From Cylindrotheca closterium (taxonomy: Eukaryota > Bacillariophyta > Bacillariophyceae > Bacillariales > Bacillariaceae): 64,000 bases of DNA. A program made the translations under genes and the position numbers. Below, in pieces: positions 8,405 through 61,130 of this stretch (positions within the stretch are counted from its first letter, which is position 1; every line of letters begins with the position of its first letter). The notes under the pieces were generated by a model. The model was not told where the DNA came from. It searched no databases and worked only from the letters and a program-made list of their open reading frames with translations. The stretch covers positions 1 through 64,000 of the forward strand of contig CAKOGP040002025.1 of assembly GCA_933822405.4 (NCBI GenBank), given 5' to 3'.

Positions 8405-9622
8405 GACAAAACTAGGCAGAAAAATGTTGGGCTTTTCGGCTAAAATTTCAAAATGCAACATTTAAAATTGGAACCTTTACCATAGTATCTTCATGCCTTT
8501 TCAACTATTCTAGATCAAGAGGACCAAGCACATTCTACGAACTTTGGCTACCGCTGTTAGATACCGTTATCTGTCGATTCAGTTGGATAGGAACGACTGA
8601 CTGGTGCTGTGATATGGACATTATCATTCGTCCCCAGATGAAGTCCAAATTGTGCTGATGCGGTATACGGTTATGATTCCTGCTATTGGAAACTGCACTA
8701 TTTTTAGTTTGTATCTATGCTACAGTAGTAGTTTTGTGTGTTCGTCGGAATCAAAGAATTCTTCTTCATCATCGTCATAGAGATAATGAAGCATGCTCAC
8801 TATTGATTCCAACATCCACTTGTGACTCAAGCACTCCCGGATTACCGTTACAAAGCACGCTGATTCAAATCCTCAGTCCGTCTGCAACGACAACAACAAT
8901 CGCAAATAGAAACAATGACGCATAAGTTGACTAGCGTGCTCCTTATCCTAGTGTATCTCCATGTACGATCCTTATTGCCTGATCTATCCAATCAATACTC
9001 ACTGTACTGCAAGACTCTGCTCTAGAAAAAACTATTCAGTACCTGATTGATTGCCCGTGGTCTTCTGAGGCTTTTCGATTTCGCCTCCTTTCTTGTGGAT
9101 GGGATCATTGCACTTATACTAGCAGCAGATTACACAGCCAGGAAGTGCGAACTATGACCGGCCGACAATATCAAGGATGCCTTCAACAACGAAATCGCTC
9201 CCCAATCTTGGCTCAGTATGACGCTCTTTTAGAATTCCCAGAAGCACACGTGACAATAGTACTCGTAGATTTTACTCTTCACAAAGAGGCCCCATTCTTG
9301 TATGAGGCAGGTCGTCGCCTTGCTACTAAAGCCGCAGTCGGAAGATAAACAATTAGTCACGAAGCGTCTGGATAGCGAGAAAATTGATTCAATCATCTCA
9401 AGATTTTCTGGTCGGAGCTATCGATCTGCTAGCTGGATACAGAACACGCTTATTCTTTCCAAACTCGTTTTTTAATGCTCCTCTTTGGATACGTCGACAT
9501 AATGATTATCTCCATGTATAACGATGGTGAAGAAGACTTCTTCGACTTTGAAGACCTTGTGCCTTTCTTTATGCTGACTCGCTGACCCAATACTAAAGGT
9601 GAGGATGTCACAGATGTTATTG
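8405..9622. other. Intergenic, no convincing gene
   Basis: Short open frames only. The plus-strand frame ending at 9348 has an ATG and a plausible composition (EFPEAHVTIVLVDFTLHKEA) but no recognisable family. The retrotransposon entered the right edge of this stretch. Confidence 0.5.
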
Positions 9623-9627
9623 CTGTA
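9623..9627. other. Target-site duplication, left copy (CTGTA)
   Basis: CTGTA directly precedes the 5' LTR and recurs at 16321-16325 directly after the 3' LTR. The copies are perfect, as expected for an element that has not recombined since insertion. Confidence 0.9.
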
Positions 9628-9813
9628 TGTTGGAATATTCGGACCCAGAGTCTGTACGCCGACCTAACGGAAGATGGGAGAATGAATAATGACCTCAAGA
9701 AAGGACGTCAAGAGAAGGGATCTCTTGACATCACAACTCATCAACTATATCTCTCTATATAACTTAACTACATAATCATATCGATCCTACCTGAAATCCA
9801 TTAGATTCACACA
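9628..9813 (+). repeat. 5' LTR
   Basis: 186 bp, starting TGTTGGAATATTC and ending ATTCACACA (TG...CA ends). It contains the TATA-like string TATATCTCTCTATATAAC at about 9747-9765, a plausible promoter core. Confidence 0.95.
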
Positions 9814-9851
9814 CGCTCCCTCTGCGTCTAATAGAATCGAATTGAAACTAC

Positions 9852-11699: not shown

Positions 11700-14600
11700 C
11701 AAGGCAAGCAGATAATCGACTTGAGTTCAGTGGAAGATATAAAAACAGAACTTCATCTTAAAAGCTATCAAGCCCACATCTGCAGAGCCATGAACGCGAC
11801 TTTCGAACACGACTCAATTCCAGTTGGGGTCGACAGCTGCACATCCTCAACAGTCGGTGGCATAAGGCACCTTTTCGTTGGGAAATTGACTCCAGTGAAG
11901 GGTATGAAATTGGAAGGAGCCTCTGGCTCCATCCCAATCGTTGCAAAAGGCACTCTGCAATTGGTTTTCGCGGACGACAATGGGCACACGCATCAGCACC
12001 TGATACACGATGCCTACTATGCTCCACGACTGAAGCTGACTTTACTGAGTCCACGCCAATGGTCAAAGCAAGGTCCAACTAAAAGAAAGGGAATGGAACC
12101 AATCCGAAACTTCAATGTGTGTGGTGACACCGTGGAACTACGTTTTGAGAACAATTGCGTCCGAACTGTCCCATTTGACAGCGAAACAAACCTACCGCTC
12201 CTGATGACAAAGCCCGGCTACTCTTCCTTCTCTTCACACCTCAAATCTCAGCACATTACGGCACAAGAAGCACGGATCCGACCAACAGCTTTGACCTTCC
12301 AAGATCTGCACCTCCCTGACGGAACACACCCCAATCCTCCATCAGAACGACAATGTCAAGATTGCGACCCCAAGGAAAAAGATCCTTTCGACCTGCACGG
12401 GACTACAGCACCAAGCCTTGCCAAGACCTTTGTCGATAACTTTGAAGAGCCACCAGCAGTCCTTGAAGATTTCAATTTTGAATCCCTCCTCACTGGTGAA
12501 TGGGATGATACAGCGCCAGAAGCAACTCTACCATCGCTAAATGAGACGGATAAAAAGACTCTTTTGCTCCGATGGCACTACCGCCTCGGACACATGCCTT
12601 TCAAGCACCTCAAAGCCAGTGCCAAAGAAGGCCTCATCGATCGTCGGCTTGCAACTATCAAAGAATTCCCATTCTGCCCCGGTTGTCAATTTGGAAAGGC
12701 AACCCGACGACAATGGCGACATCGCTCCAAGAAGAAAGACGGCAGTCGCAAGACTCCACGTCAAGCAACCAAGCCTGGATCGGTCGTGTCGGTCGACACC
12801 ATGAGCTCCACTAGCGTCCCAGGTCTGATGCCCCAACTTCGCGGACACCCCACTATAGCACGATTTCATTATGCTACAGTCTTTGTTGATCACTACAGTG
12901 ACCTGGACTACGTGCACCTTCACCAATACAACGATGCCAACTCAGTTCTTGAAGCCAAACTTGCGTTTGAACGCCATGCAAACAGTTACGGTGTGCGCAT
13001 CCAACACTATCACTGCGACAACGGAGTTTTTGCTGATAATTCCTTCAAGGCAGCATGCAAAGCTGCACACCAAACACACACCTTCTGCGGAGTCAATGCT
13101 CATCATCAAAATGGCAAAGCCGAGAAGCGTATCCGTGACCTTCGTGACTCCGCTCGCTCCATGCTTCTCCTTGCAAAGCACAACTGGCCAGCGGCCATCA
13201 CAGCGCATCTTTGGGGTTTCGCTATGGTTTACGCTTCCCAAATCCGCAATTCCACTCTTCGAGAGGGAGAACACAGGACAGCCCTTCAAAAATTTGTTGA
13301 TTCTGATGACAAACCAAATGTCAACGTCTTCCATACTTTTGGTTGTCCCATCTACAATCTGGATCCAAAACTACAGAGTGGAAGCTCCTTGGAAAACAAA
13401 TGGTGTGATAGGGCGCGAATTGGCATTTTCCTTGGCCTCTCACGCGAACACGCAAATTCGGTATCGCTTGTTCTAAACCCTGACACAGGATTGACCTCAC
13501 CTCAATTTCATGTGACGCACGACGAACGTTTCGAGACGACAGACATCCCAGCAATGAAGAATATTGGACGGTGGCAGGGATTGACTCGAATTCATGAGAA
13601 GAGATCCACAAAGAAGCCCAAAGCAAACAAAAGAAGAAAAATATCTCACACTCAGGTGCCAGAGTCAAGTGGTACCGAAACTCCAACGTCAGAGCCGATT
13701 GACGAGAGAGGACACCTCCAAGCAAAGCGCCACGAGCTCTCGACTCCAACATCAGAGACCATTGATGAGAGAGGACACCTGGAAGCACAAAGCCGACAGC
13801 TCTCGACAACTGAGCGTAACGGTCAAGATAGACTAGCTCAAACTGGCGGAACGGGGAACCCGAGGGACACCAGCAGAAACGTGCTGCCTCAGAGGGAGAA
13901 CGGAAAGCCATCCCCGAGGGACACCAGTTTACTGCCTCAGAGGGAGAATCCGAGGGACAACGGCAAAGACTTGCTGCCTCAGAGGGAGAGTTATAGGGAC
14001 ACCAGCAGCTTGCTGCCTCAACTCTCCCACCAGACCCAAAGTCGAGAAATGAGGGAGAACCGGAGGACCACCAGCACACATTCACTGCCTCCATCCTCCC
14101 GAAAGGCTGAAGGTCAAACCCAAGGTCGAGAAATGAGGGAGAGTCAACGGGACACCAGCCCAAATTTGCTGCCACGACTCTCCCGAAAGGCCGAAGGTCC
14201 AACAACACCGTTACTTGATAGCGGGACTTTCAAACATCCAGCTCTTCAGAGGGAGGACAATGCGGGAACCCGTACAATCCAAGCACTGAAGACCCACGAA
14301 TCTCTCTCTCAAAAGCGCAAGCGAGGGAGAGACGACGGGGAAGAAAACACAGCAAGTACCCTCGACCAAAAGCGTCTTGAATTTGAACTAACTTTGCGTT
14401 CTTACAGGACAGTAATTGCAAGGGAAGTCCATGCAGAAGAACTAGTGGACGAATGCATCACTGCCAATCCAATGGCCTTTGCAGCGACGTTAGCAGATGA
14501 GGATACGATGTACCTGCACCAAGCGAAGAAAGAAAGAGATTGGATTCACTTCCACACCGCAATGGTCAAAGAAATTGAAGATCATACGAAAGGAGGTCAT

Positions 14601-16100
14601 TGGGAGATAGTTCCAAGAAAATCTATGCCACAAGGGCACAAAGCGATGCGAGGTGTTTGGTCAATGAAACGAAAACGCCGTGTTGGAACTGGCGAAATTT
14701 ACAAATGGAAGGCACGACTATGCATTGATGGGAGTTCACAAGAAAAAGGCGTGAATTACTGGGATACGTATTCACCAGTTGTTGCATGGGAAACGATTCG
14801 AAGCCTACTAACACTCGCTATAATGAATGGTTGGACAACGCGACAGATCGACTTTGTCCTTGCATTCCCACAAGCAGAAGTTGAATGCCCAATGTACATG
14901 GAAATTCCGCGAGAATGCTATGTGGACGGGTCAGAGTACAACGAACAAAACGTTCTTTTATTAAAGAAGAACCTTTACGGGGCCAAGCAGGCGGGCAAGG
15001 TATGGTTCGATTTTCTCCGAAAGGGGCTGAAGGACATCGGTTTCAAACAATCGAAGGTCGACAAAGCAGTCTTCTATAAGGGCGAGACAATTTTTATCGT
15101 TTATGTGGACGATGCAATTTTGATGGGTCCAAACGGACGCGAAATTAATGACGTCATCAAACGGCTCGGACAAAAGTACAAATTAACGGACGAAGGCGAT
15201 TTGAACGAATATCTCGGAATCAAAATGACCAAGACGAGCGAAGGTCGAGAATTGACCCAACCCGCCTTGATCCAACGCATTCTTGAAACGGTAAACATCG
15301 ACCTGGACCGCGGAGCACGACGAGAAGTCAGAACACCAGCAAACAAAGTTTTACACAAAGATGAAGGTGGGCTAACGCGTCAACTTCATTGGGACTACCG
15401 TTCTGTAATTGGAATGCTAAATTGGCTGGCAAGATCGACGCGACCTGAATTGATCTTTGCGGTCTCTCAAGTCGGACGATTCATGGCCTTTCCCAAGAGA
15501 TCCCACGAGGATGCCGTAATGAGAATCTGCTGTTACCTTCGCGACACACGCGACAAGGGTATGTTCATGAAGCCAAAATCTGGAAAGGGCTTTGAAGTAT
15601 ATGCGGACGCAGATTTTGCAGGCGGCTTCAACAAACACAGCGCCGAAGACCCAGCAACTGCAAAATCGCGAACAGCTTACCATATCATGTTTAACAATTG
15701 CTTGATCTATTCACATTCCAAGATGCAGACAGAGATCGCTTTAAGCACCACGGAGGCCGAATACATCTGTCTTTCCCAGGCACTGCGAACTGTGCTCGTT
15801 TTAATCCGATTTTTCAAAGAACTCGCAAAGAGAATCAAATCTTTCAACTATACCAAACCGATTTTCAAATGTAAAGCTTTCGAGGACAATAATGGAGCAA
15901 TCGAACTCGCGACAGCCGACAAACTTCGCCCACGCACCAAACACATTAACATCAAGTATCATCACTTCAAGAAGTCGGTCCGCAAAGGGGAAGTTTCCAT
16001 TCAGAAAATCGACACAAAAGATCAATTGGCCGATATCGGAACAAAACCACTCGACGCCGCCACCTTCGTTGCTCTCCGCTACCTCCTTATCGGTTGGTAA
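11697..16100 (+). CDS. pol: Pol polyprotein (PR-IN-RT-RNaseH) of the copia element
   Basis: 1467 codons open after the gag UGA. An aspartic protease core (GVDSCTSSTVGG, near 11826) has DSC in place of DTG. The integrase zinc domain is HYRLGH...CPGC (about 12575-12690), and the integrase catalytic Asp-Asp-Glu lie in VSVDTMSS, HCDNG and QNGKAEKR (about 12790, 13013, 13112). A linker of low-complexity repeats spans about 13680-14210. Reverse transcriptase follows (RQIDFVLAFPQAEVECPMYM, LYGAKQAG, VYVDDAILM near 15103), then RNase H (VYADADFAGG, ALSTTEAEYICLSQ, EDNNGAIELA, TKHINIKYHHF). It lacks its own plausible ATG and is probably made as Gag-Pol. All catalytic residues checked are present, so it may be active. 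Confidence 0.93.
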   Translation, partial: RQGKQIIDLSSVEDIKTELHLKSYQAHICRAMNATFEHDSIPVGVDSCTSSTVGGIRHLFVGKLTPVKGMKLEGASGSIPIVAKGTLQLVFADDNGHTHQHLIHDAYYAPRLKLTLLSPRQWSKQGPTKRKGMEPIRNFNVCGDTVELRFENNCVRTVPFDSETNLPLLMTKPGYSSFSSHLKSQHITAQEARIRPTALTFQDLHLPDGTHPNPPSERQCQDCDPKEKDPFDLHGTTAPSLAKTFVDNFEEPPAVLEDFNFESLLTGEWDDTAPEATLPSLNETDKKTLLLRWHYRLGHMPFKHLKASAKEGLIDRRLATIKEFPFCPGCQFGKATRRQWRHRSKKKDGSRKTPRQATKPGSVVSVDTMSSTSVPGLMPQLRGHPTIARFHYATVFVDHYSDLDYVHLHQYNDANSVLEAKLAFERHANSYGVRIQHYHCDNGVFADNSFKAACKAAHQTHTFCGVNAHHQNGKAEKRIRDLRDSARSMLLLAKHNWPAAITAHLWGFAMVYASQIRNSTLREGEHRTALQKFVDSDDKPNVNVFHTFGCPIYNLDPKLQSGSSLENKWCDRARIGIFLGLSREHANSVSLVLNPDTGLTSPQFHVTHDERFETTDIPAMKNIGRWQGLTRIHEKRSTKKPKANKRRKISHTQVPESSGTETPTSEPIDERGHLQAKRHELSTPTSETIDERGHLEAQSRQLSTTERNGQDRLAQTGGTGNPRDTSRNVLPQRENGKPSPRDTSLLPQRENPRDNGKDLLPQRESYRDTSSLLPQLSHQTQSREMRENRRTTSTHSLPPSSRKAEGQTQGREMRESQRDTSPNLLPRLSRKAEGPTTPLLDSGTFKHPALQREDNAGTRTIQALKTHESLSQKRKRGRDDGEENTASTLDQKRLEFELTLRSYRTVIAREVHAEELVDECITANPMAFAATLADEDTMYLHQAKKERDWIHFHTAMVKEIEDHTKGGHWEIVPRKSMPQGHKAMRGVWSMKRKRRVGTGEIYKWKARLCIDGSSQEKGVNYWDTYSPVVAWETIRSLLTLAIMNGWTTRQIDFVLAFPQAEVECPMYMEIPRECYVDGSEYNEQNVLLLKKNLYGAKQAGKVWFDFLRKGLKDIGFKQSKVDKAVFYKGETIFIVYVDDAILMGPNGREINDVIKRLGQKYKLTDEGDLNEYLGIKMTKTSEGRELTQPALIQRILETVNIDLDRGARREVRTPANKVLHKDEGGLTRQLHWDYRSVIGMLNWLARSTRPELIFAVSQVGRFMAFPKRSHEDAVMRICCYLRDTRDKGMFMKPKSGKGFEVYADADFAGGFNKHSAEDPATAKSRTAYHIMFNNCLIYSHSKMQTEIALSTTEAEYICLSQALRTVLVLIRFFKELAKRIKSFNYTKPIFKCKAFEDNNGAIELATADKLRPRTKHINIKYHHFKKSVRKGEVSIQKIDTKDQLADIGTKPLDAATFVALRYLLIGW

Positions 16101-42672: not shown

Positions 42673-45600
42673 CTAAGTACCAGATATCATTGGGTTGTAA
42701 GCGTGATTTTCTTCATTCAATTTTCCCTTTTGTCTGCTGTTCTGCCGTGGACGAGAAGGAGGGACTGCCACCTCCAATTTCTCGAGTGCTGCCAAAGCTC
42801 GAACAACCTTGACGGTCGACTCCTGCCAGAGTGCATGCATTGGATCCGAACGTGTTGCGTCTCCAATTGCATTCCCATATACTTCCCGCACATACAGCTC
42901 CGATTGTGACATTAATGCCAGCCGCTCCATTGCTTTTGCCATTCCCATTCCTCGATTGCGGCTGTGGCCTTGTGCTAGGATCATCGCAAGACTGTTGCGT
43001 ACTTTTGCGTTCAGCTCTGGCGATCCACAGACATAGAGCCTTGTTCTAGAATTGTGCAGCAAGTCAAGCAGTGTAGCCCGCTCTTGCCGAAGAAGATCTT
43101 CCAGTTCCATCTTCCTACCACTGCTGTGACTGTAGGCGACGAACGGATGAAGCAAACCCTTCTTCCTCAATAGTTCAATCTCAGTGGAATATGGTAGTTC
43201 TTCTGGACTCTTGCACCCACAGAACAAATAGGTTGGATTCGTTCTTCCTGCCAACCAGAATGTCCGACAAGGTGCGATGCCTGGACCTGCCGAAATGAGC
43301 AGAACAGGTGCGCCTTCGTCATCTGGAAGTCGAAATTTTGTCCTGGAGAAAGTGGCATCTATTTGCTGCCCTTTTGTTAACGATCTCAACCATCTGGAAG
43401 CGACACCAGCCTTTCCACTCCCTTCGAAGGTATAGACTGACTGCACAATACTGACAGTATTTTTCGTTCCATCAATTGAAGCAATGGAATAGAATCTTGG
43501 ATCCATGGAAGGTACGTATTTCAATATCCAATTCATTGGAATCGAACCTGGAGGCATGATCTGGACAAGCTTTTCAACAGACAAAGAGCTGTCGGCAGAA
43601 ATAGTGGTCAAGAGTTCATCGAGAACACTCATAGCACTTTCGTTGCCCTGAATATAGTCGTTGAGAAAAGATAGCTCATCTAAGCTCAATGGTTTCGACA
43701 GATCCTTGAATTTCTTGAGATACTTTTTCGCCGCAGCGGCATCGGGTACACTAACATGTCGCATAACAGTTTCGACAACATCATCCATGTTGTGTGGGTA
43801 CAATACCACATGGTCTCCAGCGGCTAGTCCTTGTAGTCGATTCTCGCCCTCTTCCTCCTCTAACTTGAACCGAAAGAGATCGAGCGATCTTTTGAGTTTA
43901 TTGGAATTGCGCTCCCAAGAGTCTAGATACTTTCCTCCTCCAACTGCACCCGGATCATCAACTGAATCCAGCTTCAACACGGGCACGAGTTTCTCAAACG
44001 CCATTGTCGTCAATTGAACTTCCATTGGCTTTGTCGGCTCTACCGTGGGGTTTCTCTTGTAGAGAATACCTTCAACTTCTTCGAACAACATCGTTCGGAA
44101 ATCAGCGAACGCTTCTTCTGGAGCCTCGAGAGTATCAACATAGTGGATACCCATTGCAGGTACACATCCTGCTCTCTTCAAATTGGCTTCCACAACCGAG
44201 GCAAACGATGCTAAACTTCCAGTGTATGCCGAATTGCAAAGACCGCATATAGCAAAATCAATGTTGTGGAGAGATCCTTTCGCCAGTTGACTCATTCCAC
44301 CCAAGAAACTTTTGGCATGGAGCGGTGGCGCACCAGAACTTGCGGTTGAAGTTACGATAATTGCAAGAGATTTTTTCTCAACAGACTCCAGCAGCAGATC
44401 TGGTAGGCTGTCTAATGGGATGGGCCCAGTTGCACTGCCTCCAAAGTCGCCAACCAGAAGGGTTGCCAATCGTAAACTTGTCCCTGTCTCGGAAGCGTAG
44501 TACACAAACACATGGTCGTAATGACAATTCGCTCTGTTGAACACAAAGTTATTGCCTCGTTTTCTTGGCGCAATACTGATAGGTAGAGGCATTGCGAGAT
44601 CCAGGTCATCCCAGAGAGGCTTTTGAATCAAATATTGAGGTTTCACAACGAAGTCTGCCATTTCTTGATGATATGCTGCTGTCATACTAGATGTGGCCGG
44701 AGCAACTACCTTGATCCAATCGGCTGAAGAAGAGGTTATCGTTAGTACCATTGAATCAATTATCACTGACTTGGAATGACAGCTGATGCTTACCTGGACA
44801 ACTTCCAAAGTCTTGTACCTGGGAAGAATGAAATTCAACAAACTCCTCGCTAACTGCATGATAGTCGAGACAACGCAATCCATCCCTCGCAAAGCTGTTC
44901 AAAATAGACTTTTGTGTTTGTAGTTGAACATTGTCCCTCCACAATGAAAGGGGGGACTTTTTTAGAGCACAAGCTGCGGCAATCGCTTCAGCGAAGCCAT
45001 ACCGACTTCGATCAAGCAGAAAACTTGAGATTTCAGAAGCTTGATACAGCCTTGTGAAAGGAGCAGTTTGGTAGAGCAAACCTGCATTGCGGAAAATCCA
45101 ATTGTTAGAGTTGCGAGATAGATCCATCACTTTTTATTTTCGGGCTTCCACGCGTCTTACCTCCAATATCGATCGCCATGCTTGCATCAGAAGCCTGAGC
45201 GTGCCAACGAAGGTTCAAATTCCTGAACAAGTCGAAATCTGGGTGATCAAATTCAACTTCATGTATGGCCTCTGGTGGTAGTACGAATACCTTTGGATTA
45301 TCATGCCCTCGCGCTGCATCAGAGATAAGTAATGGTAGAATATCAAAATCGGATTTCTCTTCTGGAGGAATCCAACCAAATTTCATACAGAGGACAGTGA
45401 AGTCGAGATTGGAGGAGTCTCCCATTATGCTTCCATCGTCTCTCTTGTATGCGGCATATCCAAGAAGATCTCGATTCCAAATGCGAACTGGAGCAAACTC
45501 GTTATCCTGTTTTGGTTGAAATACCGAAATGACAGGGGATTCAGATCCGCCATCGAAAACTTCTTTCAGATGCTTCACGCACTGATTGAAACAGTCGTCC

Positions 45601-48600
45601 GCAGTTTTGGCTTGGCGACAATCGTTCACTGTTAATGATGCATACGCGCTACGCATTATGAATTGTCCACAATTTCTCCATGCGAGGCGACAACCATATT
45701 GCAGCTCGTCGTAAGTTTGAGTATACGAACCAGCTTCGACGATGCTTCTCTTGATTTCTTCCAGTCTCTCCTCGAGACGTTTCCCATGCAACAATCCGGT
45801 TTCTTGAGCGAATCGTTGAATGAAATAGGTTGCTTCCTCGCACGCTAGACTGACGTCACTAGTTTCCGTAGCTGATGCTTGACTTTCAGGATATCCCATG
45901 AACTGACCTGGGCCTTCAAGGTCGGACAAAGCGGGGGTGTTCTTCTGTCCATTTCCGAGTGGCTTCGAACTGTTGGTTTGTGAGAAATCGTCTTTCTTTT
46001 TATCGATTTGATTGCTCAAAGAGCGTACCTGACTTCTGGCCGAGTCGTTGCTGAGACGCATAATCTCCTTATTTCGTTGCTCTGAAATCTGAACAAGTTC
46101 TTGGAACTTGTCTTCCTGTTGCTGCGCAAACTCAGCAAACCACGGCGGCATCTCTGTTGCATCCTCTGGTGAAATGGCTGATATCATGGCGGAGACTTTC
46201 TCTTCATTACGTTTGCGCATACGATCAAGATTTTGCATTGTAGACACCTTATCTTCATTTCTTTTCTTGAGATCCTCAAGATTTTTGAGCATACTCTCAA
46301 ACTTACGAGGATGGGAACTCTTTTCTTCCTCGGTTGTCGCCTCCGCCGTTGTCTCTGTTGTTGGTACCTTGTCAACTTTTCCACCAACGGAATTTCTCTT
46401 CTCAATTCTTCCTTGAATTTCAGATTGGAAGCTCAGTAATTTCTTCTTCATTTCCTCGCGAGAGGCATCTTGCGCCTCGTTGCTAGTTGCAGCATCAGCT
46501 TTAGTTTCGGGCTCATTTTTACCATCCGCACCACCGCGTTTCGAAGAATGTTCCGATACCTTAGTCAGATATTCGCCCTCGGTAACCTCCATGCTTGCGC
46601 CGTCTGTTGATGCATCAAAATTCTCCAATTTGGTAGTCTTTTTCACAGGCTGAAGCTTCGGTGAATCCAGTGAAACTTCCGTCGACTGACTCGTGTTCAA
46701 TTTCCCTTGAATGTCAGCTTGAAATTTTTGCAAGCTTGCAAGCATCACATTGCGTGGAATAGTTGCTTGTTCTTCTTCTAGAGCCTTGATACGCCCTTCC
46801 CGACCTTTTGCCCTTCGAATGTTGTTGGTCTCTCCGATTGCATCCTTTGCTTTCAGATCAGCAGCAGCAGCAGCTTTTGGTTTCGTCTCTTTCTTGGCAC
46901 CATCGCTGGGTACCTTCTTTTCGATGCTCGACCGAAATGCCAAAAGACTGGCAGTCAACTGATCGCGAGTCAAGCTTCCGTTTTCCGTCTCGAGTTGAAC
47001 TATGCGGCTCTTCGCCTGCTGCAATGGTACTGCTGCTGCTTCTGGTAGTCGAAATTCGCTCGAAACAATGGAAGTTTTGTTGGCAGTTTCGGGTTCTGGT
47101 GCTTCAAATTCGCACGAAACAAATGCTGGGTTCTTGGAAGTTTTCGGCTTGGCACGAGGTGCTGGCTTTTTGGTTTTCAATTGAGTCTGGAAGGAAAGAA
47201 GACTGGCCTTGATCTCGTCTCTTGACATTTGGGTGTTTTGTTGCTTGATTTGCGTAGCTCGATCACTCGACGACCAGTCATTGCGATCACTCGACGACCA
47301 GTCCTTTGATTTGGTTTTGTCTTGGCTCGACCTGTTTGTCAATGGATTGTGTTTGCCAGCAGCCGTGGGTGTGTCGACTTGAGGTGAGCTGTCTTCACTC
47401 GACGGTGGAGCCACTTCCGAGTGTAGAACATTGACCACCAAAGGGCCGTGCCCTGGTTTGTCTTCCACAGGTCCTTCTTCATGATCATCTTCTTCCAAAA
47501 TGAAGCGTTCGACGTTGCTGCCCACGCGAGCTTCCATTTTAGATTCAAACCATTTTCGAAAGTTTCGATCTTCAATTTCTCTGGAGCTCAATTCCGCCCC
47601 TACAAGGCCTTGACCTTCGGCACTTTTGGAGGCCTGTAGCTTTCGCTTCGAGTCTGACTTCGGCATTTCCAGCATACTACCTCTCCTTATACTTCGTTTT
47701 ACTGCTGGTGGTGGTGAAACATGCTCCACCTCCACGGACTTGTGTCTGCTGGGTCTGCCACCAGTGGGTGCTTTTTGCCGGATCCTGGCACCAGTGGTAG
47801 CAGTTGCAGTTGCAGCTGGCACTGCTCCACCCTTGTGGAGTTTCTGGTCAATTTGTGACTGAAACGCCCTAAGACTCGAGATCAAATCATCCTTGGGGGT
47901 TTCCACATTTTGGCGCTGCAACTCGGACGCTCGATCTTTTTTGGATGGAATGAGTTGTGGAGTGGGACCGAGATTTGCTGCTGATGGCAACAAGGACTTT
48001 GCCGATACTGGCTTGGCAGCAGCAGCATCTTCTTCTTCTTCATTATCACTCGTACTGTTGCTGGAAGTCGCGTCTTGATTTGATACCAAGGTCATGTCGC
48101 GCTTGGACAAGCTCCGATGGAACTTTTTCAAGTCTTCCAGAGTATCTTTTCGATTGGACGGTGATTCGGCTTCTTTGAGCGGCTCTTCATAAATTGAGGA
48201 GCTGTCGCTGTGATCATCGTCATTATCATCTTCATCTCTGAGGCTCTCGCTGTGATCCTCATCATGCATGATATCTTCTTCTTCGTGCAAGGGTTCGAGA
48301 CCTTCGTCGGATGCGTCATCGTCATGCTGTTCGATTACACAAGAAGGACTTGCTTGCTGAGGTTCTTGATTAGCAGTCGACACAATGACTGGACTCTTTT
48401 CACTGCCTGTGGCTTCCGCCTCGGCTGCTTCCGCTCGTGACCGAAATGTCTTTGGTAGAAACTCGCTGAGACTCTCCCCCAAGTCGGAAGCCCCACTAGA
48501 TTCCGTATCTGCTCCTGAGGATTGATAACTTCTATACGAGGCACCGATTGTATCCTTGGGTTCGTCGGAAAGCTTTGCCGTGTAACTCGCATAATATGTT

Positions 48601-48890
48601 GGTGGTTCGTCGACACTAGCAGTTTTTCCTGATTTGGTGGTTCGCAATTTAGTATTCATTTTCGCTTGAAAGGCTTGAAGATTTTGCGTCAACTCCCCAC
48701 GCTGCTGTGGTCGAGCCTCCTTCTTATTGGATGATAATGATGATGAAATTAATTTACCTTGAGTTGATGATGCGTCTTCCTTCTTCGTTGTCTTCTTTCC
48801 CTTATTGTTCATATCCGAGGAAAACTGCAGAAAGCTCTTTTTGAGATCGGCCAAAGGCATGTCCACAGCTTTGTCGTTTTTGGTTGGCAT
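42673..48890 (-). CDS. Nitric oxide synthase-like protein A, heme-ligand Cys replaced, with giant N-terminal extension
   Basis: Exons 48890-45161, 45081-44794, 44723-42673 (2022 residues). The introns are 79 and 70 bp, and the joins restore NOS motifs (IDIGG|LLYQTAPF; SCP|ADWIKVVAP). Residues 1-1000 are a low-complexity extension with eight copies of an L..FQ..I..K motif. The oxygenase domain (about 1030-1390) aligns without gaps to NOS, but the heme segment is LAWRNCGQFIMR: the Cys ligand is Phe1077 (codon 45662-45660). The substrate Glu is kept (YQASEISSF); the neighbouring Trp is Leu. A flavodoxin-like FMN domain (YYASETGTS) and an FAD/NADPH reductase (RFYSIAS, AGVASRWL, SAGPGIAPCRTFW, LYVCGSP) follow and look competent. 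It is divergently paired with NOS-like B. Probably not a catalyst of NO formation alone. Confidence 0.88.
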
Positions 48891-49949
48891 GATGGCTGTT
48901 CTTGATGTTCTTGTTGCTGGTGTCGTTGTTGTTACTTCTTGTAAGGCTGATCGTAAAAGGTGATGTATTTCTCTTCTCTTTTTGTGTTGCTGATAGGTCT
49001 TCTGTTCGAGCTGTAAGCGATAGTATGTTACCTTGCAGGCATAAAGAAGCAGGGATCGGGTTGATGGTTGATGGGAAGAAGGATCGTGTGTTCCATTTTC
49101 GCCCACTTCGTTGCACTTCTCATCTCGCGGACGTGCAAATAGTCATTTCTTTGGTTTTGAGCTTCCGTCTTCGGGTTCTACAGGATAATGATACTTCTTT
49201 GAGATCGCGAATCGCCAGTTTATTAATTCTAAAACCTTTCTTGTGTTCGTAATGACTTTTGATATGCCCAACATAAGTATATCGAAACAAAGAATTATCT
49301 CATGGTTACGCTCAATTAACATCCATTCCATTTCTATAAGCCCGCTGAATGTTCTCTGTCGCCAGCCGGATGTGGGATCGATGAGGAGAATGCCGTTGGA
49401 GCAAGAGGAGTTGAGTGGTGTGTTCGGAACGAAACGCTACTACACGTTACATAAAACCGTATGCAGTTTGTGAGCACGGTACTTGGACTGTGTCCTTCAT
49501 CGTCTAAACATTGCATTCGTAATGACTTTTGATACGCCCAACATAAGTATATGTCTAGACCTTAGAATAATCTCATGGTGGCTCTCGTATAAAAGGCATT
49601 CGGCTTCGTTAAGTCCCTTCATAGTTCTCCATCGCCAGCCGGTTGTGGGATCCGTTGGCAGTGGTGCGTCCCATAGTTAGGGTCAATGTTACGAGGAGTC
49701 GAGTCCGCTACTACAGTACCGGAAGAGCGTGAGTAGCGTCGACAAAGAAAGTGGAACATTGTGTCCTTCCAGCAGAAGCCCATCCCTGAAAAATAAACAC
49801 CGTCCAACTATATTGGATACATTAGGCAAACTCCTATTACGCACCTACTATAACGAAGCGTGAAACTACTAGTAGCGTTTGATTTGATTCGAAGGACAAG
49901 AAGTAACAAAAAGGAAGAGAAAGACAATAGTTCAATCCTATCAATCATC
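48891..49949. promoter_or_regulatory. Shared upstream region of the two NOS-like genes
   Basis: 1.06 kb between head-to-head starts, so a bidirectional promoter is likely. It contains a direct duplication of about 270 bp (about 49240-49505 and 49509-49775): both halves carry TTCGTAATGACTTTTGATA, CCCAACATAAGTATA, ATCTCATGGT, CGCCAGCCGG and TGTGTCCTTC. Duplicated control sequence could give each gene its own copy. Confidence 0.6.
49240..49775. repeat. Direct duplication in the NOS intergenic region
   Basis: Two imperfect units with a period of about 270 bp. Unit-to-unit identity is moderate and patchy, so the duplication is old compared with the kinase or 717-bp repeats. Confidence 0.75.
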
Positions 49950-52900
49950 ATGTCCTCCACCAACCTACCAGCCTCGTCCCAGGCCATGTTGGACAACCTG
50001 GAACGTATGAAAAAGCGGAATCAAGAACGCTTGGCAGAGATTGTACGGTCCTTTAGTGAAACCAGCAATAGTGAATCCAATGCTAGTGCCACCAACACTG
50101 CTAGTTTCAACCAGATGATCAGTGGAGGAAGTGGAAGAAGCGGAGGCAGCGGAGGCAGCGGAGGAAAGGCTTCCATTCAAACTACTACCACGAGTGCCAC
50201 GGAGAATACCGACTTTTTGGAAGATGACGATGACGACGAAAACGACTTGCAAGATAATGCGTCCCAAAGCTCATCGTCTTCTTCCAGTTCCTTGATGAAT
50301 CCTTATTTTGGAAACCCTGCGGCTGGAGTACCGGCTTGGTTTTCCAGTTACATGGCTCAGCAAGAAGCCCGACAACAACTAGTAAAGAACAAACTACATG
50401 CGCAAAAGGAAGAGATTGATCGATTGAACAACAATCATAATGAAAATGATACTGGGGAGAGCTCAGTGGTAGTGCAAACACTGTGTCCACTGCCACAAGT
50501 CACTCCCACGATATCGCCATTTTCAAAAATGGGAGAAGAAGAGAAAAAGGAACAAGGTGATAGTCTCGATGACAACAGCATATTGGTAGACGACGCACAA
50601 GATCCACGCAACGAATCGCCCTTGAAGCTGCAACCCATGGTCGTAACAGAGGAAGCAGAGGATGATGAAATCAATCAGTCTTACTTGACATCGCCGCCTT
50701 CCACAAAGGATGTAGTGGCCACGCTCTCGGGTCTGAGTTCGGAAATGAGCCATAGTTACGACTCGGAAGAGCGCCGCAAACGACGACACCAAAACATTCG
50801 CAATGTCTTTCGGGCTGATACAACGAAATCGCCTTTTGTGCGAAACGCGGACGAAATCAACACCTTGATAAAGTTATCCGACGCCAAGCAATTTCTAGAG
50901 CAATTTGCTGCAATCAAGGGGGAGAAAAGGGTGGATATTGATAATGGTGGTGAACAGCAGCAGGAGGACCCAGACGAGCAGGTACAACTACAAAAATCCC
51001 AATCACAACAGCAATCGCAAGAAGATCGCCTGGAACAAGTACAACGGGACATTGAAAGAACGGGGACCTATGAACATACACCCCAAGAGCTAGAATTTGG
51101 TTGTCAATTGGCCTGGAAGAATGCTGCGAGATGCAATGCCCGGCAATACATGGACAAATTGGTGATACGAGATTCGCGATATGTCTCTTCGGCCAAGGAT
51201 TGCTTTGAGGATTTGGTAAAACATATCAAGACATCTTTTAATGACGGAGCGATACGACCAGTCATGACCTTGTATAGACCGAAGCAAGATGGACAATCGG
51301 CGCCAGTACGAGTTTGGAACCGACAGCTGTTGGGGTATGCTGCCTACGAACTCGTGGATGGGAAGATTATGGGGGATCCCATCAATTTGCAATTTACGGC
51401 TTTGTGTCAAGAATTTGGATGGACGCCACCCAAGATCAAGACCGATTTTGATATTCTTCCATTGCTGATATCGGATGCATCTACTGGGCATGCCAAACCG
51501 CAAGTCTTTGAAATACCATCCGAAGAGATTCCGGAAGTACGCATCACACACCCGGAATTTGATCTCTTTGAATTGCTGGGGTTGAGATGTTACTCAATGC
51601 CTTGTGTTTCCAACATGGGTGTTGAAATTGGGGGAGTGCATTATCAGACAGCTTGCTTCAGTCGATGGTACCAAGTTACGGAAATTGGACGCCAGTTTTT
51701 GGATACTGATCGGTACAATTTAGCCGAATCCGTGGCGGTTGCCTGCAACATTCCACGACCATTCGACAATGGTCTTTGGAAAGATACTGCCCAAATGGAG
51801 CTACACAAGGCAATTTTATACAGTTTTGAGGAACAATTGATCCCATGCGTCGATCATTACAAGGCCAGTCAAAGTTTTGTCCATTATTATGACCTAGAAA
51901 TGAAAGAGCACGGAAAGTGTCCAGCCGACAAGGCATCGCTAATGCCTCCCGCTGGAGGAAGCATGACGGCCGTCTACCATAAGAAAGACATGGCAAATCA
52001 CGTTGAGAAGCCACAGTTTCGTAGACAGTTGAGCATTTGGGATGATCTTCGTATTGGACTTCCAGAGCCTATCGTTGTCGAGTCTATTCGGGGATTGTCA
52101 AGGGCTTACCCAACCAATGCAGAAACGAATATGTACGATGAGGTTTTCATCTATCACGCATCTGAGTTCGGCAAAGCGCTCCGCATGGCAACCATGATTT
52201 CTTGTGAATTTGGAGAGAATGCAACTGGGCCTATTGCCTTGGATGATCTTCCTGATTTGCTTATTCAGCACTCGGATTATAGTGGAACAAATCGGAAACA
52301 GAGTAAGACTTTGGTGGTCATTGTAGCCTCGACCAATGGAATGGGGGATGCACCAGAATCAGCAAAGAGTTTTGTTGATCAAATGAAGATGGTGCAGGAG
52401 CATTCTGTGCGCGACGTTGAATTCTCGATTTTGGCACTGGGGAATTTTGCTTATCGACAGAGTTCTGCTGCGTTTGGCCACAAGGTTTATTCCTTGCTGG
52501 AGAAAGCAGGATGTTCCCCAGCCTTGAATATTCAAATCGCAGACGAGTTAAACGATCCTCAAGCTGCACTGGATTCCTTCACAAAACTGATAACGCAAGT
52601 TTGTACAGGGCAGGGGCAGTTGGGCATTGATTTAGGGGCAATATCAAGCCGGCCGCCAGCATTTGCAAGTATCAGTCTAGAGGCGCGTACAAAGATGCTA
52701 GAAACGAGTTCAACTTCGGAAAACAACCACAGGGATCCAGGAGTGTTGCATTACAGCAGCTCGTGGGCCAACAGGGCACACAAACTAAAACCGTCTATGG
52801 ACATGTTCACGTTCAATGTTAATGAGGGGTATGAAAGTCTCCTGAACGAAGCCGTTCCTGGTGATCTTGTGGCGCTCTATCCATCAAATTTGAACGACGT

Positions 52901-54008
52901 TGTTGAGCTGGTTTTCCGGAATGTCAACCATTCCAAAAGATCAGTCGCAAGAGAATACCTAAAGTCCAACATTGACCTTTCCAGACCACTCAAGTCTGCT
53001 GACATTCAAGAGCTTCGAAAGCTAATGAGAAACACAGATGCCAGGGAGATCGTGGCAACGATTGCTAGCCAATCTTCGCAAGAGAACAATCCGTCCATAG
53101 AGCAGCTGGTTCAGATGCTCCCTCCAGGCTCGATTCCAATGGAGTGGGTTGTTCAATTTGGGCCTCCAATCGATCCTAGATTCTTCTCCATTGCGGAAGT
53201 GAACTTACTCGAAAACAGCGTGAGCTTTGCCCAATCTGTGTACACTTTTGAGTCAAACAAGAAAGCTGGACTAGCCTCGCGCTGGCTGCGATCGCTGCGC
53301 AAGGGCGAGATGACTAGTGCACTCTTTGTCACCAGCAGTTTCCATGCACCCGCAAATCGGGATTGTCCCTTATTGCTGTTTGCAGCAGATTCAGGAATTG
53401 CGTCTTTTCATTCGTTGTGGCAACCGAATTGCAGAAACCCGCTGTATCTCTTCTACGCCTGCAAGAATCCATCAGAGATTGCATTCCGATCGAACATCTC
53501 TGATCTGAAGGAGGAAGGACGTCTAAAGCCGTACATTGCCTACAGCCATGTGAAGAACGGTAGAATGGAGATAAATGAATTGATTCTGAGAGCCCGAGAT
53601 GTGCTACTAAAGCGCATTCACATCAAGAAGGGAATAATCTACATTTCTGGGCCTCCAGGATTTGAAAGGACAGTACGCAATGCATTGGTAACGGTTCTTG
53701 CTGAAGGGAACGAGTACTTTCCTGGAATGGGGACGATGCGAGCTCTGGAGTATCTGGCTGTTATGTCGCAGACGAAGCGATTGTTCTTGCAGGTCTACGG
53801 GAAACCGGCTTTCACTGAAGATCCAACTTTGGTAATGTGGCAAGAGGCCGTAGCAAAAACAGTTAGGGCAATCACAAATCTCGAGCAGATTGGTCTGCTT
53901 CAGGGGCGAACCGACGACACTTTCGCTCTTGATTCAGATTTCATGGGTTCCTCGAAAATTCAAAGTGGCAAGCGTTATAATCCAAAGGTCGTGTTCACCG
54001 ACTGCTAA
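49950..54008 (+). CDS. Nitric oxide synthase-like protein B, heme Cys kept, NADPH site degenerate
   Basis: 1352 residues, intronless, ATG at 49950 (the frame is open upstream but only from a GTG). The N-terminus NLERMKKRNQER and a GVPAWFSSYMAQQE segment match a region just before the oxygenase domain of protein A, showing common origin. The heme segment LAWKNAARCNARQY keeps the ligand Cys395 (51132-51134). The substrate pocket SRWYQVTEIG keeps Trp and Glu, and SNMGVEIGG and CPADK are also present. The flavodoxin domain has HASEFGKAL (P-loop altered) and TNGMGDAP. The reductase keeps RFFSIAE and AGLASRWL, but the NADPH glycine motif GPGxGIAP is AADSGIASF (about residues 1145-1153) and the later YVCGD is YISGP. 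NADPH use is therefore doubtful. Confidence 0.88.
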   Translation: MSSTNLPASSQAMLDNLERMKKRNQERLAEIVRSFSETSNSESNASATNTASFNQMISGGSGRSGGSGGSGGKASIQTTTTSATENTDFLEDDDDDENDLQDNASQSSSSSSSSLMNPYFGNPAAGVPAWFSSYMAQQEARQQLVKNKLHAQKEEIDRLNNNHNENDTGESSVVVQTLCPLPQVTPTISPFSKMGEEEKKEQGDSLDDNSILVDDAQDPRNESPLKLQPMVVTEEAEDDEINQSYLTSPPSTKDVVATLSGLSSEMSHSYDSEERRKRRHQNIRNVFRADTTKSPFVRNADEINTLIKLSDAKQFLEQFAAIKGEKRVDIDNGGEQQQEDPDEQVQLQKSQSQQQSQEDRLEQVQRDIERTGTYEHTPQELEFGCQLAWKNAARCNARQYMDKLVIRDSRYVSSAKDCFEDLVKHIKTSFNDGAIRPVMTLYRPKQDGQSAPVRVWNRQLLGYAAYELVDGKIMGDPINLQFTALCQEFGWTPPKIKTDFDILPLLISDASTGHAKPQVFEIPSEEIPEVRITHPEFDLFELLGLRCYSMPCVSNMGVEIGGVHYQTACFSRWYQVTEIGRQFLDTDRYNLAESVAVACNIPRPFDNGLWKDTAQMELHKAILYSFEEQLIPCVDHYKASQSFVHYYDLEMKEHGKCPADKASLMPPAGGSMTAVYHKKDMANHVEKPQFRRQLSIWDDLRIGLPEPIVVESIRGLSRAYPTNAETNMYDEVFIYHASEFGKALRMATMISCEFGENATGPIALDDLPDLLIQHSDYSGTNRKQSKTLVVIVASTNGMGDAPESAKSFVDQMKMVQEHSVRDVEFSILALGNFAYRQSSAAFGHKVYSLLEKAGCSPALNIQIADELNDPQAALDSFTKLITQVCTGQGQLGIDLGAISSRPPAFASISLEARTKMLETSSTSENNHRDPGVLHYSSSWANRAHKLKPSMDMFTFNVNEGYESLLNEAVPGDLVALYPSNLNDVVELVFRNVNHSKRSVAREYLKSNIDLSRPLKSADIQELRKLMRNTDAREIVATIASQSSQENNPSIEQLVQMLPPGSIPMEWVVQFGPPIDPRFFSIAEVNLLENSVSFAQSVYTFESNKKAGLASRWLRSLRKGEMTSALFVTSSFHAPANRDCPLLLFAADSGIASFHSLWQPNCRNPLYLFYACKNPSEIAFRSNISDLKEEGRLKPYIAYSHVKNGRMEINELILRARDVLLKRIHIKKGIIYISGPPGFERTVRNALVTVLAEGNEYFPGMGTMRALEYLAVMSQTKRLFLQVYGKPAFTEDPTLVMWQEAVAKTVRAITNLEQIGLLQGRTDDTFALDSDFMGSSKIQSGKRYNPKVVFTDC

Positions 54009-56696: not shown

Positions 56697-57256
56697 ACGC
56701 TGAAGGACATGAACAGCAGATACCTCATACTTGACAGCAAGATCCAGCTATGTTCCCTTTTGTTTGAAAAGGAAGCTTCTCATCTCTTGAAAATTGGAGA
56801 AAGATTCCATCAATTTACAGATATTATCCGAGTCGATAGACAAGCGCGAACCAGTGGTGGGAGTTCAAGAGGGAGGACCATTCTTGGTCTGAATTAACTT
56901 CCTTCATTTCAACTATTTTACCGGTATGTAATGCCGTATAAAGTACTTCGATAGTTCCGCCAAAGGTACAGCGAGTTCTTCAACTCAGGAGGAGCAACAA
57001 ACATAAAGCTTTGCGGCAGAAGCTAGGCACAAACCAAACCTCGCAGGACGGACCAGACAATTGACTTGCTATGACTGCATTCGGCTTGCTCCTGCATATG
57101 TATTGATCCTCGCTTTCGTCTTACACTAATACTGCTTTCGAGCACCATTACTACTATACTATAGACTTGATAGTCACCCCCTCAACTCGCTCCCCCACTT
57201 CAAAACCGCCCAGTGCCCAGTTTTTAAAAAATCTCAGCTTCAACATACAGGTACCT
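56697..57256. other. Intergenic before the tandem array
   Basis: No gene. A short stretch near 56864-56885 (GGGAGGACCATTCTTGGTCT) resembles part of the dispersed repeat at 5920-6118. Confidence 0.4.
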
Positions 57257-60200
57257 GTGTTTTAAGGCCAGGCAGACATACCTGAGACTGGTTGGCTCGC
57301 TGACTGAAGCCGACAACACTAGCGATTTGTACGTGCGCGTTATGCGTACGTTGAGCGATAGTTTGCTTGGATGTTTTCACATCAACACAATTAATTTTTA
57401 GGCATCAAGGTTTTACGATTATTCTTGTTGCCTTAAAACAATTCCATGTTTTCGGATTCCCTGCAAAACCGACTCATAGGAATCCCCCGAATAAAACGGA
57501 CCAAACGGACATTTGTCCGTCTGTCCGATCGGACGTGTCGAACTGCTTCCATCAAGGAGTTTCCAATGAATGGTCTCCAAGAGAGCAATTTCAACATGTA
57601 GATAAAGTTGGAAATCGGTTCTGGCGGACATCAGACTGCTTGTCTTCGTCCAAACCGATTGACAACGTTGTGGCCCATCAAGCCATGATTGCCAACCAGC
57701 CGTGCCAGCATGCGACCCATCATGCAGAGGCACCGTCCATAGCGATCTCCGATCCGCCTAATAGGAAATAATCATCTCTACAGGAAATAACTATTCTAAA
57801 AGACTTGTTATCTACATGGAATGGGCAAAGCAAAAGCCTTGCACGAAAACTCAAATTTCCCAAACCTTTACTGGATGTTTGCAATCCAGAAAGGCCGGTA
57901 CAAAACCCACGTACAGAACTCCTGCAGGATTCAGTATGGGATTTTCGTGGCGCTCAGACGTTTCATGGTCCAAGTGTTTTAAGGCCAGGCAGACATACCT
58001 GAGACTGGTTGGCTCGCTGACTGAAGCCGACAACACTAGCGATTTGTACGTGCGCGTTATGCGTACGTTGAGCGATAGTTTGCTTGGATGTTTTCACATC
58101 AACACAATTAATTTTTAGGCATCAAGGTTTTACGATTATTCTTGTTGCCTTAAAACAATTCCATGTTTTCGGATTCCCTGCAAAACCGACTCATAGGAAT
58201 CCCCCGAATAAAACGGACCAAACGGACATTTGTCCGTCTGTCCGATCGGACGTGTCGAACTGCTTCCATCAAGGAGTTTCCAATGAATGGTCTCCAAGAG
58301 AGCAATTTCAACATGTAGATAAAGTTGGAAATCGGTTCTGGCGGACATCAGACTGCTTGTCTTCGTCCAAACCGATTGACAACGTTGTGGCCCATCAAGC
58401 CATGATTGCCAACCAGCCGTGCCAGCATGCGACCCATCATGCAGAGGCACCGTCCATAGCGATCTCCGATCCGCCTAATAGGAAATAATCATCTCTACAG
58501 GAAATAACTATTCTAAAAGACTTGTTATCTACATGGAATGGGCAAAGCAAAAGCCTTGCACGAAAACTCAAATTTCCCAAACCTTTACTGGATGTTTGCA
58601 ATCCAGAAAGGCCGGTACAAAACCCACGTACAGAACTCCTGCAGGATTCAGTATGGGATTTTCGTGGCGCTCAGACGTTTCATGGTCCAAGTGTTTTAAG
58701 GCCAGGCAGACATACCTGAGACTGGTTGGCTCGCTGACTGAAGCCGACAACACTAGCGATTTGTACGTGCGCGTTATGCGTACGTTGAGCGATAGTTTGC
58801 TTGGATGTTTTCACATCAACACAATTAATTTTTAGGCATCAAGGTTTTACGATTATTCTTGTTGCCTTAAAACAATTCCATGTTTTCGGATTCCCTGCAA
58901 AACCGACTCATAGGAATCCCCCGAATAAAACGGACCAAACGGACATTTGTCCGTCTGTCCGATCGGACGTGTCGAACTGCTTCCATCAAGGAGTTTCCAA
59001 TGAATGGTCTCCAAGAGAGCAATTTCAACATGTAGATAAAGTTGGAAATCGGTTCTGGCGGACATCAGACTGCTTGTCTTCGTCCAAACCGATTGACAAC
59101 GTTGTGGCCCATCAAGCCATGATTGCCAACCAGCCGTGCCAGCATGCGACCCATCATGCAGAGGCACCGTCCATAGCGATCTCCGATCCGCCTAATAGGA
59201 AATAATCATCTCTACAGGAAATAACTATTCTAAAAGACTTGTTATCTACATGGAATGGGCAAAGCAAAAGCCTTGCACGAAAACTCAAATTTCCCAAACC
59301 TTTACTGGATGTTTGCAATCCAGAAAGGCCGGTACAAAACCCACGTACAGAACTCCTGCAGGATTCAGTATGGGATTTTCGTGGCGCTCAGACGTTTCAT
59401 GGTCCAAGTGTTTTAAGGCCAGGCAGACATACCTGAGACTGGTTGGCTCGCTGACTGAAGCCGACAACACTAGCGATTTGTACGTGCGCGTTATGCGTAC
59501 GTTGAGCGATAGTTTGCTTGGATGTTTTCACATCAACACAATTAATTTTTAGGCATCAAGGTTTTACGATTATTCTTGTTGCCTTAAAACAATTCCATGT
59601 TTTCGGATTCCCTGCAAAACCGACTCATAGGAATCCCCCGAATAAAACGGACCAAACGGACATTTGTCCGTCTGTCCGATCGGACGTGTCGAACTGCTTC
59701 CATCAAGGAGTTTCCAATGAATGGTCTCCAAGAGAGCAATTTCAACATGTAGATAAAGTTGGAAATCGGTTCTGGCGGACATCAGACTGCTTGTCTTCGT
59801 CCAAACCGATTGACAACGTTGTGGCCCATCAAGCCATGATTGCCAACCAGCCGTGCCAGCATGCGACCCATCATGCAGAGGCACCGTCCATAGCGATCTC
59901 CGATCCGCCTAATAGGAAATAATCATCTCTACAGGAAATAACTATTCTAAAAGACTTGTTATCTACATGGAATGGGCAAAGCAAAAGCCTTGCACGAAAA
60001 CTCAAATTTCCCAAACCTTTACTGGATGTTTGCAATCCAGAAAGGCCGGTACAAAACCCACGTACAGAACTCTTTGTACCATGTTGGAAATCGGTTCTGG
60101 CGGACATCAGACTGCTTGTCTTCGTCCAAACCGATTGACAACGTTGTGGCCCATCAAGCCATAATTGCCAACCAGCCGTGCCAGCATGCGACCCATCAAG

Positions 60201-61130
60201 TCGTCATGCAGAGGCACCGACCATAGCGATCTCCGATCCGCCTAATAGGAAATAATCATCTCTACAGGAAATAACTATTCTAAAAGACTTGTTATCTACA
60301 TGGAATGGGCAAAGCAAAAGTCTTGCACGAAAACTCAAATTTCCCAAACCTTTACTGGATGTTTGCAATCCAGAAAGGCCGGTACAAAACCCACATACAG
60401 AACTCCCGCAGGATTCAGTATGGGATTTTCGTGGCGTTCAGACGTTTGCCCACAATTCCACCGACTCATAGGAATCCCCCGAATAAAAACGGACCAAACG
60501 GACATTTGTCCGTCTGTCCGATCGGACGTGTCGAACTGCTTCTATCAAGGAGCTTCCAATGAATGGTCTCCAAGAGAGCAGTAGATAATGTTGGAAATCG
60601 GTTCTGGCGGACATCAGACTGCTTGTCTTCGTCCAAACCGATTGACAACTTTGTGGCCCATAAAGCCAACATTGCCAACCACTCATGCCAACATGCGACC
60701 CATCAAGTCGTCATGCAGAGGCACCGACCATAGCGATCTCCGATCCGCCTAATAGGAAATAATCATCTCTACAGGAAATAACTATTCTAAAAGACTTGTT
60801 ATCTACATGGAATGGGCAAAGCAAAAGCCTTGCACGAAAACTCAAATTTCCCAAACCTTTACTGGATGTTTGCAATCCAGAAAGGCCGGTACAAAACCCA
60901 CGTACAGAACTCCTGCAGGATTCAGTATGGGATTTTCGTGGCGCTCAGACGTTTCATGGTCCAAGTGTTTTAAGGCCAGGCAGACATACCTGAGACTGGT
61001 TGGCTCGCTGACTGAAGCCGACAACACTAGCGATTTGTACGTGCGCGTTATGCGTACGTTGAGCGATAGTTTGCTTGGATGTTTTCACATCAACACAATT
61101 AATTTTAAGGCATCAAGGTTTTACGATTAT
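57257..61130 (+). repeat. Tandem array of a 717-bp unit
   Basis: Units start GTGTTTTAAGGCCAGGCAG at 57257, 57974, 58691 and 59408. The first three are full 717-bp copies that appear identical. The fourth is interrupted near 60073, followed by shortened and rearranged copies (about 60073-60405 and 60406-60964) and a final partial copy from 60965. Each unit contains the palindrome GTCCGATCGGAC next to CGGACATTTGTCCG. 717 is a multiple of three, so the same frames recur in each unit; the recurring 134-codon frame is probably not a gene. Confidence 0.92.

Follow-up and report, generated by a model that had tools for sequence, protein, structure and literature searches.

Reciprocal loss of catalytic residues in a head-to-head pair of NOS-like genes from the diatom Cylindrotheca closterium

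Could two proteins homologous to nitric oxide synthase (NOS), each lacking a different part of the catalytic apparatus, work together as a single enzyme? This question is raised by two head-to-head genes in a stretch of 64,000 nucleotides from Cylindrotheca closterium (assembly GCA_933822405.4, contig CAKOGP040002025.1, positions 1 to 64,000; hereafter the window), which represents part of one contig. Gene A lies on the minus strand (48890 to 42673) and gene B on the plus strand (49950..54008), with 1059 bases (48891..49949) between their divergent start codons. The original prediction, made from the letters of the window, saw in them a possible obligate heterodimeric NO synthase in which A supplies the electrons and B the heme. 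Both genes are indeed present where it placed them, its numbering of Phe1077 in A and Cys395 in B is exact, and the motifs it quoted (GPGIAP and YVCG in A, AADSGIAS and YISG in B) are all there. In both proteins, however, the NOS active site is incomplete. We consider it possible, with a probability of roughly 0.42, that A and B go back to an old duplication of one NOS-like diatom flavohemoprotein, became oppositely specialised and work as an A-B pair.

Gene B is a single exon coding for 1352 residues. Gene A is spliced and therefore is not one reading frame. Its model has three exons (45161..48890 with the ATG at 48890, 44794..45081, and 42673..44723 with the stop at 42673), separated by two GT-AG introns (45082..45160 and 44724..44793), and codes for 2022 residues. 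The first exon encodes an N-terminal extension of about 1040 residues and then the oxygenase with Phe1077, the second a further oxygenase segment, and the third the oxygenase end followed by the FMN, FAD and NAD(P) modules. Residue for residue, the spliced product matches P0010, a public protein from C. closterium. Between A and B, identity is 41% across 970 aligned positions, which extend from the oxygenase to near the C terminus. We searched the assembly (47.6 Mb, 572 contigs) with the NOS oxygenase profile PF02898, and it matched three places: A exon 1 (208.9 bits; cut-off 22.7), A exon 2, and B (377.9 bits). Neither this profile nor a re-search with A found a further NOS-oxygenase gene in the 47.6-Mb assembly.

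Three protein searches yielded 32 distinct proteins (P0001-P0032), 23 of which, A and B included, were aligned. Left out were P0014, P0021, P0024-P0026 and P0029-P0032; P0021 and P0024-P0026 carry PF02898 and were omitted for brevity alone. The B-type set consists of six sequences (B, P0002, P0003 and P0004-P0006), and A-type reductases are represented by four (A, P0015, P0016 and P0017). Position numbers of iNOS and nNOS are anchored by motif.

The most conspicuous difference between the two oxygenases concerns the proximal heme-thiolate cysteine (iNOS Cys194), which B has (Cys395, codon 51132-51134) and A does not (Phe1077, codon 45660-45662). In this column, Phe is found in A and P0012, the two A-type sequences that cover the site, and Cys in all 17 other sequences with data, including 6/6 of the B-type. 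A has also lost R193, P344, V346, W366, R375 and W457 (iNOS numbers), and has Ser at the position of N348, which is variable among canonical sequences too. The B oxygenase domain (residues 358-690, 51021..52019) retains C194, P344, V346, W366, E371 and R375, with substitutions at G365 (Arg), W455 (Lys), W457 (Ser) and E473 (Lys). The column that we take to be iNOS Trp366, the FMN-docking Trp, is thus retained in B, as it is in the two closest relatives of B, and lost in A. This docking residue corresponds to human eNOS Trp356 and syNOS Trp715, according to passages of PMC12922734.

In the reductase half the losses fall on the other protein. The FMN, FAD and NAD modules of A all score above their Pfam cut-offs, and the NADP-loop Gly, the subsequent Pro and Arg, and the hydride-transfer Cys are kept in 4/4 A-type sequences with data. 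In A itself these include Gly1819 of GPGIAP (codon 43285-43287) and Cys1905 of YVCG (codon 43027-43029), both in exon 3; the three other A-type reductase pieces retain GxGIAP. The B reductase region (residues 728-1285, 52131..53804) is matched by PF00258 (Flavodoxin), with no FAD or NAD Pfam domain at E<=0.001. Its NADP-loop Gly is replaced by Asp (Asp1147 in B) and a nearby Arg by His in all six B-type sequences, and the hydride-transfer Cys by Ser in four of the six (Ser1233 in B). Three further substitutions are common to B and the two sequences closest to it: Phe in the FMN phosphate loop (Phe740), Glu directly following the FAD SIA motif, and Gln for the C-terminal acid (Gln1281). The KxYxQ motif, whose Tyr and Gln hold the NADP 2'-phosphate in reductases of this family, has lost both residues in 10/10 A- and B-type sequences with data, the Tyr being replaced by Glu (Glu1879 in A), Arg or Gln; the cofactor preference of both types may possibly have shifted towards NADH.

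AlphaFold2 models, which we read at the level of fold only, agree with kept domain structures. The B core model (mean pLDDT 71.5, pTM 0.40) has a folded oxygenase and reductase joined by a low-confidence linker, and the A reductase model is folded as well (pLDDT 72.1, pTM 0.70). The top PDB fold for the A reductase is 1tll, the nNOS reductase (E 8.6e-33), with a low TM-score of 0.49 by query length. In our reading, A would combine an oxygenase devoid of heme with an NAD(P)H-FAD-FMN reductase that probably works, and B would be a heme-thiolate oxygenase attached to a reductase of kept fold that probably no longer accepts hydride.

If so many catalytic residues are missing from each protein, are the genes simply decaying, or products of assembly or annotation errors? 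We regard this as very improbable. The open frames are long and the splice sites clean, and the same lesions recur in sequences from independent sources (P0002, P0003, P0004-P0006 and P0012). The oxygenases are 80-86% identical to their nearest relatives, and the N-terminal extension 56-64%. P0002 comes from an NCBI metagenome-assembled genome and P0003 is an MMETSP transcript, so at least one B relative is expressed. The defective NAD domain of B is even more similar to those of its two nearest relatives (91-94% identity) than the oxygenase (84-86%), which indicates that the module is maintained and is not rotting, although the difference is non-significant in two of the three pairs (Fisher p 0.078, 0.071 and 0.003, from counts back-calculated from percentages). 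On this conservation we rejected the pseudogene explanation. The original prediction had proposed looking for the same Phe/Cys and NADP-loop patterns elsewhere; the Phe does recur in P0012, and five relatives show the B-type lesions, which goes beyond chance. To judge from the aligned sequences, the residue losses are no accidents of one strain.

Phylogenetic analysis places the origin of the two types well in the past. A reductase tree of 22 sequences (LG+G4) groups A with P0015-P0017 in one clade and B with P0002-P0006 in another, both with 100% support, so the A/B duplication is old. The oxygenase tree (19 sequences) likewise gives 100% support to the B-type clade and to the A pair. According to the topology, the A- and B-types predate the split from the lineage or lineages of P0004-P0006 and P0016-P0017, in which they are known as separate sequences. 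The Cylindrotheca stems are long (0.355 for A, 0.436 for B; 0.147 and 0.156 in the other lineage), which fits co-evolution of A and B and fits a generally fast lineage too. Searches for more distant occurrences found no relatives of P0016 among viral contigs and none of P0004 among prokaryote genome contigs. Among phages, P0004 picked up two Staphylococcus phage records with an NOS-oxygenase-like stretch; in one of them, OR845001.1 (named as a Staphylococcus phage), it lies at 9527-10498 and may be host DNA in the record.

Do the opposite losses fit together into one site? NOS is a textbook symmetric homodimer with electron transfer in trans, and each of its pterin/heme sites is built from residues of both subunits. 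From known contacts we chose a small set of 14 positions and took ten of them as residues of the heme-bearing subunit (cis) and four as supplied by the partner (trans); the latter we take, from crystal structures, to be iNOS 455, 470, 471 and 473, an assignment for which we found no printed confirmation. With this division, 2/10 of the cis and 4/4 of the trans residues are kept in A, compared with 8/10 and 2/4 in B. The 11 canonical sequences keep all ten and all four, partly by construction, since the same sequences set the allowed letters at R193, V346, F470 and E473. P0002 and P0003 score exactly as B, and P0004-P0006 keep 7-8/10 cis and 3/4 trans residues, the latter because Asp was accepted for Glu473. 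When the residues are summed by site, the one formed by B as heme-bearing subunit and A as partner has 12/14 and the opposite site 4/14, compared with 10/14 for B-B and 6/14 for A-A. The losses thus appear to track the site and not the protein, and so speak for an A-to-B heterodimer that carries a single heme.

The proposed pair would then operate as follows. Because NOS flavins reduce the heme of the opposite subunit, an A-B heterodimer would send electrons from the flavins of A to the heme of B. The single live heme site would be the one in B, completed at the dimer interface by residues of A. Electron transfer in trans has been described for mammalian NOS and syNOS (passages of PMC12922734, citing Siddhanta 1998). 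Together with this rule, the docking Trp kept in B and lost in A and the site-wise pattern make the A-to-B direction the best reading of the data. The part of the original prediction that has fared well is therefore the opposite specialisation: the losses lie in opposite modules, both types occur in related lineages, and the cis/trans pattern, under the division assumed here, is as predicted for A-B. A heterodimer is plausible. The original prediction also had A and B co-expressed, for which the head-to-head arrangement is the sole indication.

A number of observations weigh against joint work of A and B. The cis/trans division is an assumed one, and the A-type trans residues are known from one full sequence (A) plus F470, H471 and E473 in P0016. 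On the B side, the docking Trp is Phe, Leu and Phe in P0004-P0006, respectively, P0005 and P0006 each lack one further cis residue, and the stacking pterin Trp, also a cis residue, is missing from B as well as from the two relatives nearest to it. In A a Cys sits three residues before Phe1077, as it does in P0012; we judge it misplaced for heme. The A reductase is itself imperfect, as Gly1502, the third-loop FMN Gly, is Cys (the same in P0015), and the KxYxQ Tyr and Gln are changed to Glu. The supposedly dead halves show no faster decay by branch length: from the A/B split to the tip, hand-summed branches give about 0.77 for A and 0.78 for B in the reductase, and about 0.59 and 0.64 in the oxygenase. 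Counts of the conserved columns kept give no significant difference between the two proteins either, whichever domain is taken (for A and B, respectively: oxygenase 61/76 and 65/76, p=0.52; FMN 10/16 and 11/16, p=1; FAD 14/14 and 11/14, p=0.22; NAD 13/17 and 9/17, p=0.28). The reciprocity, as far as the alignment tells, is one of particular catalytic residues and not of general decay. Finally, FAD_binding_1 matches on five other contigs represent other diflavin reductases that could serve B.

Several of these points suit the main rival, in which A and B have neofunctionalised separately and do no joint work. A would be a flavoprotein reductase that serves other acceptors and retains the oxygenase as a scaffold, and B a heme protein (a sensor, scavenger or oxidase) fed by a general reductase. 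The diflavin reductases on the five contigs provide candidates for the latter, the lack of reciprocity in domain-wide counts is as expected, and the conserved though defective NAD module of B hints at an independent role. The same distal-pocket Arg (see below) and the KxYxQ Tyr/Gln loss are common to both types, so the move away from NOS chemistry had probably set in by the time of the duplication. Yet separate neofunctionalisation alone predicts neither the reciprocal cis/trans pattern nor that both types would recur in further lineages. We hold it to be a tentative but serious alternative.

What would an A-B pair make? The substrate pocket, which the original prediction described as kept in B, is so in part. 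Trp573 and Glu578 are there, but the preceding residue is Arg572 (codon 51663-51665) where a Gly would be expected, and neither pterin Trp remains. At the L-arginine site, B thus has Arg-Trp...Glu and A has Arg-Leu...Glu (Arg1254 and Leu1255, exon 2), where all 11 canonical sequences have Gly-Trp...Glu. The pterin Trp pair (iNOS 455 and 457) is Lys661 and Ser663 in B and Trp/Lys in A; both Trp are lost in the two closest relatives of B as well. The distal-pocket Gly (iNOS 365) is Arg in 7/7 A/B-type sequences with data and in 0/11 others, so the Arg most simply predates the A/B duplication. We take the position to be nNOS 586, where a side chain would presumably point into the distal pocket. 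E371 is retained in 18/18 sequences with data, including A with no heme Cys, and the Arg may pair with this conserved Glu. The Gly has been studied before, as the title of PDB entry 3fc5 gives a solved nNOS G586S mutant. BH4 is contacted by Trp455, Trp457, Phe470, Arg375 and Arg193, and its site lies in the dimer interface, as described in passages of PMC3795282.

An obligate A-B heterodimer making NO from L-arginine draws on the Cys395, Trp573 and Glu578 that B retains, on a PTPS-family gene in the genome as a possible tetrahydropterin source, and on C. closterium sequences being among the putative diatom NOS reported earlier, as seen in portions of PMC4648414. With the Arg at the distal Gly in 7/7 A/B-type sequences and 0/11 others, and both pterin Trp gone in B and two relatives, we nevertheless find it improbable. 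Replacement of the stacking Trp in human eNOS (W447A; iNOS Trp457) abolished NO and increased superoxide (passages of PMC3795282). The Lys at the partner-side Glu of B also leaves the label of NO synthase unsupported, and it is further weakened by the KxYxQ Tyr and Gln and the FMN-loop Gly missing from the A reductase. NO formation by the pair is doubtful and NO synthase unproven; on residue grounds, A and B class as NOS homologues and not as NOS.

With an Arg for the distal Gly and no stacking pterin Trp in B, a product other than coupled NO from L-arginine is to be expected for the proposed A-B pair. It could be superoxide or peroxide made from O2, or come from some other oxygenation. A more specific version is rather unlikely but can be spelled out. 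It would be an obligate NOS-derived heterodimer with one heme per dimer, in which the pseudo-oxygenase A gives electrons and half of the interface, the pseudo-reductase B gives the heme, and a built-in arginine faces the conserved Glu in place of the free substrate, making a different O2-using machine. If A and B do pair, they would provide a natural test of electron transfer in trans in NOS and an example of how a homomeric enzyme can become heteromeric. The UniRef name of A, 'nitric-oxide synthase (NADPH)', also calls for caution in inferring NOS-based NO in diatoms from annotation.

Outside the conserved core, the N-terminal extension of A (residues 1-1039; 48890-45774) contains seven copies of an LxxFQxxI-type motif, which may be a repeated binding motif. 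These windows are 73% identical between A and P0012, compared with 56% outside them (circular-shift p ~0.02). The N-terminal extensions of A and B give three weak short BLAST matches (E 0.008 to 0.022). Residues ~861-950 of A and ~7-162 of B share short stretches resembling NLERMKKRNxE and PxWFxxxxxQQE, seen too in P0002 and P0004-P0006; a shared association helix is possible. Elsewhere in the window there are three neighbouring protein-kinase-like open reading frames (ORFs) (254-1498 plus, 2358-3623 minus and 6460-7848 plus; each PF00069 ~142 bits), a Copia-type element ORF of 1459 residues with RVT_2, gag_pre-integrs and SH3 domains (11721-16097, plus), four direct repeats with a spacing of 717 bp (57250-59700; 99% identical over 300 bases compared), and, after these, a two-copy 333-bp array (59758-60405).

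How do A and B compare with known systems? A 2015 paper on diatom NOS genes (Di Dato et al.; PmNOS) includes two C. closterium sequences, one of them 'with an ambiguous position' in the tree (portions of PMC4648414). They may include A and/or B from another strain; section 7 of that paper reports no catalytic-residue loss and no partner relation. In our searches of an open-access library, no title or abstract opening described a paired or heterodimeric diatom NOS, and none reported these lesions. NOS genes are thus known in C. closterium, and it is the loss in reciprocal positions, conserved among relatives, that appears new. Metazoan NOS, with a PF02898 oxygenase and a CPR-like diflavin reductase, is like A and B in domain order, fold and the E371 equivalent, and shares its heme Cys with B and its diflavin modules with A. 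It differs in that A lacks the heme Cys, B lacks the NADP site, and both have Arg at the distal Gly, pterin Trp losses and no zinc CxxxxC motif within 130 residues upstream of the oxygenase. The zinc motif is present in P0004, P0006, P0007, P0011 and three animal sequences and absent in P0013, P0022 and P0023 too (P0009 starts too late), so it is not universal among NOS-like proteins. Cyanobacterial syNOS (PDB 9q05, 9q06, 9q0y and 9q15) is the top fold match of the B model (E 3e-60; low whole-model TM-score of 0.31 by query length) and, in passages of PMC12922734, transfers electrons to the opposing subunit. However, syNOS comes from a single gene, is symmetric and has globin and C2 domains, and a Pfam search gave no PF00042 globin match in A or B. 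The nearest canonical-looking, diatom-like NOS are Eucampia P0011 (41% identical to A) and P0007 (38% to B). They resemble A and B in a Tyr-Gln after the pocket Trp position but, unlike them, keep all ten cis and four trans residues, the zinc CxxxxC and the NADP glycines.

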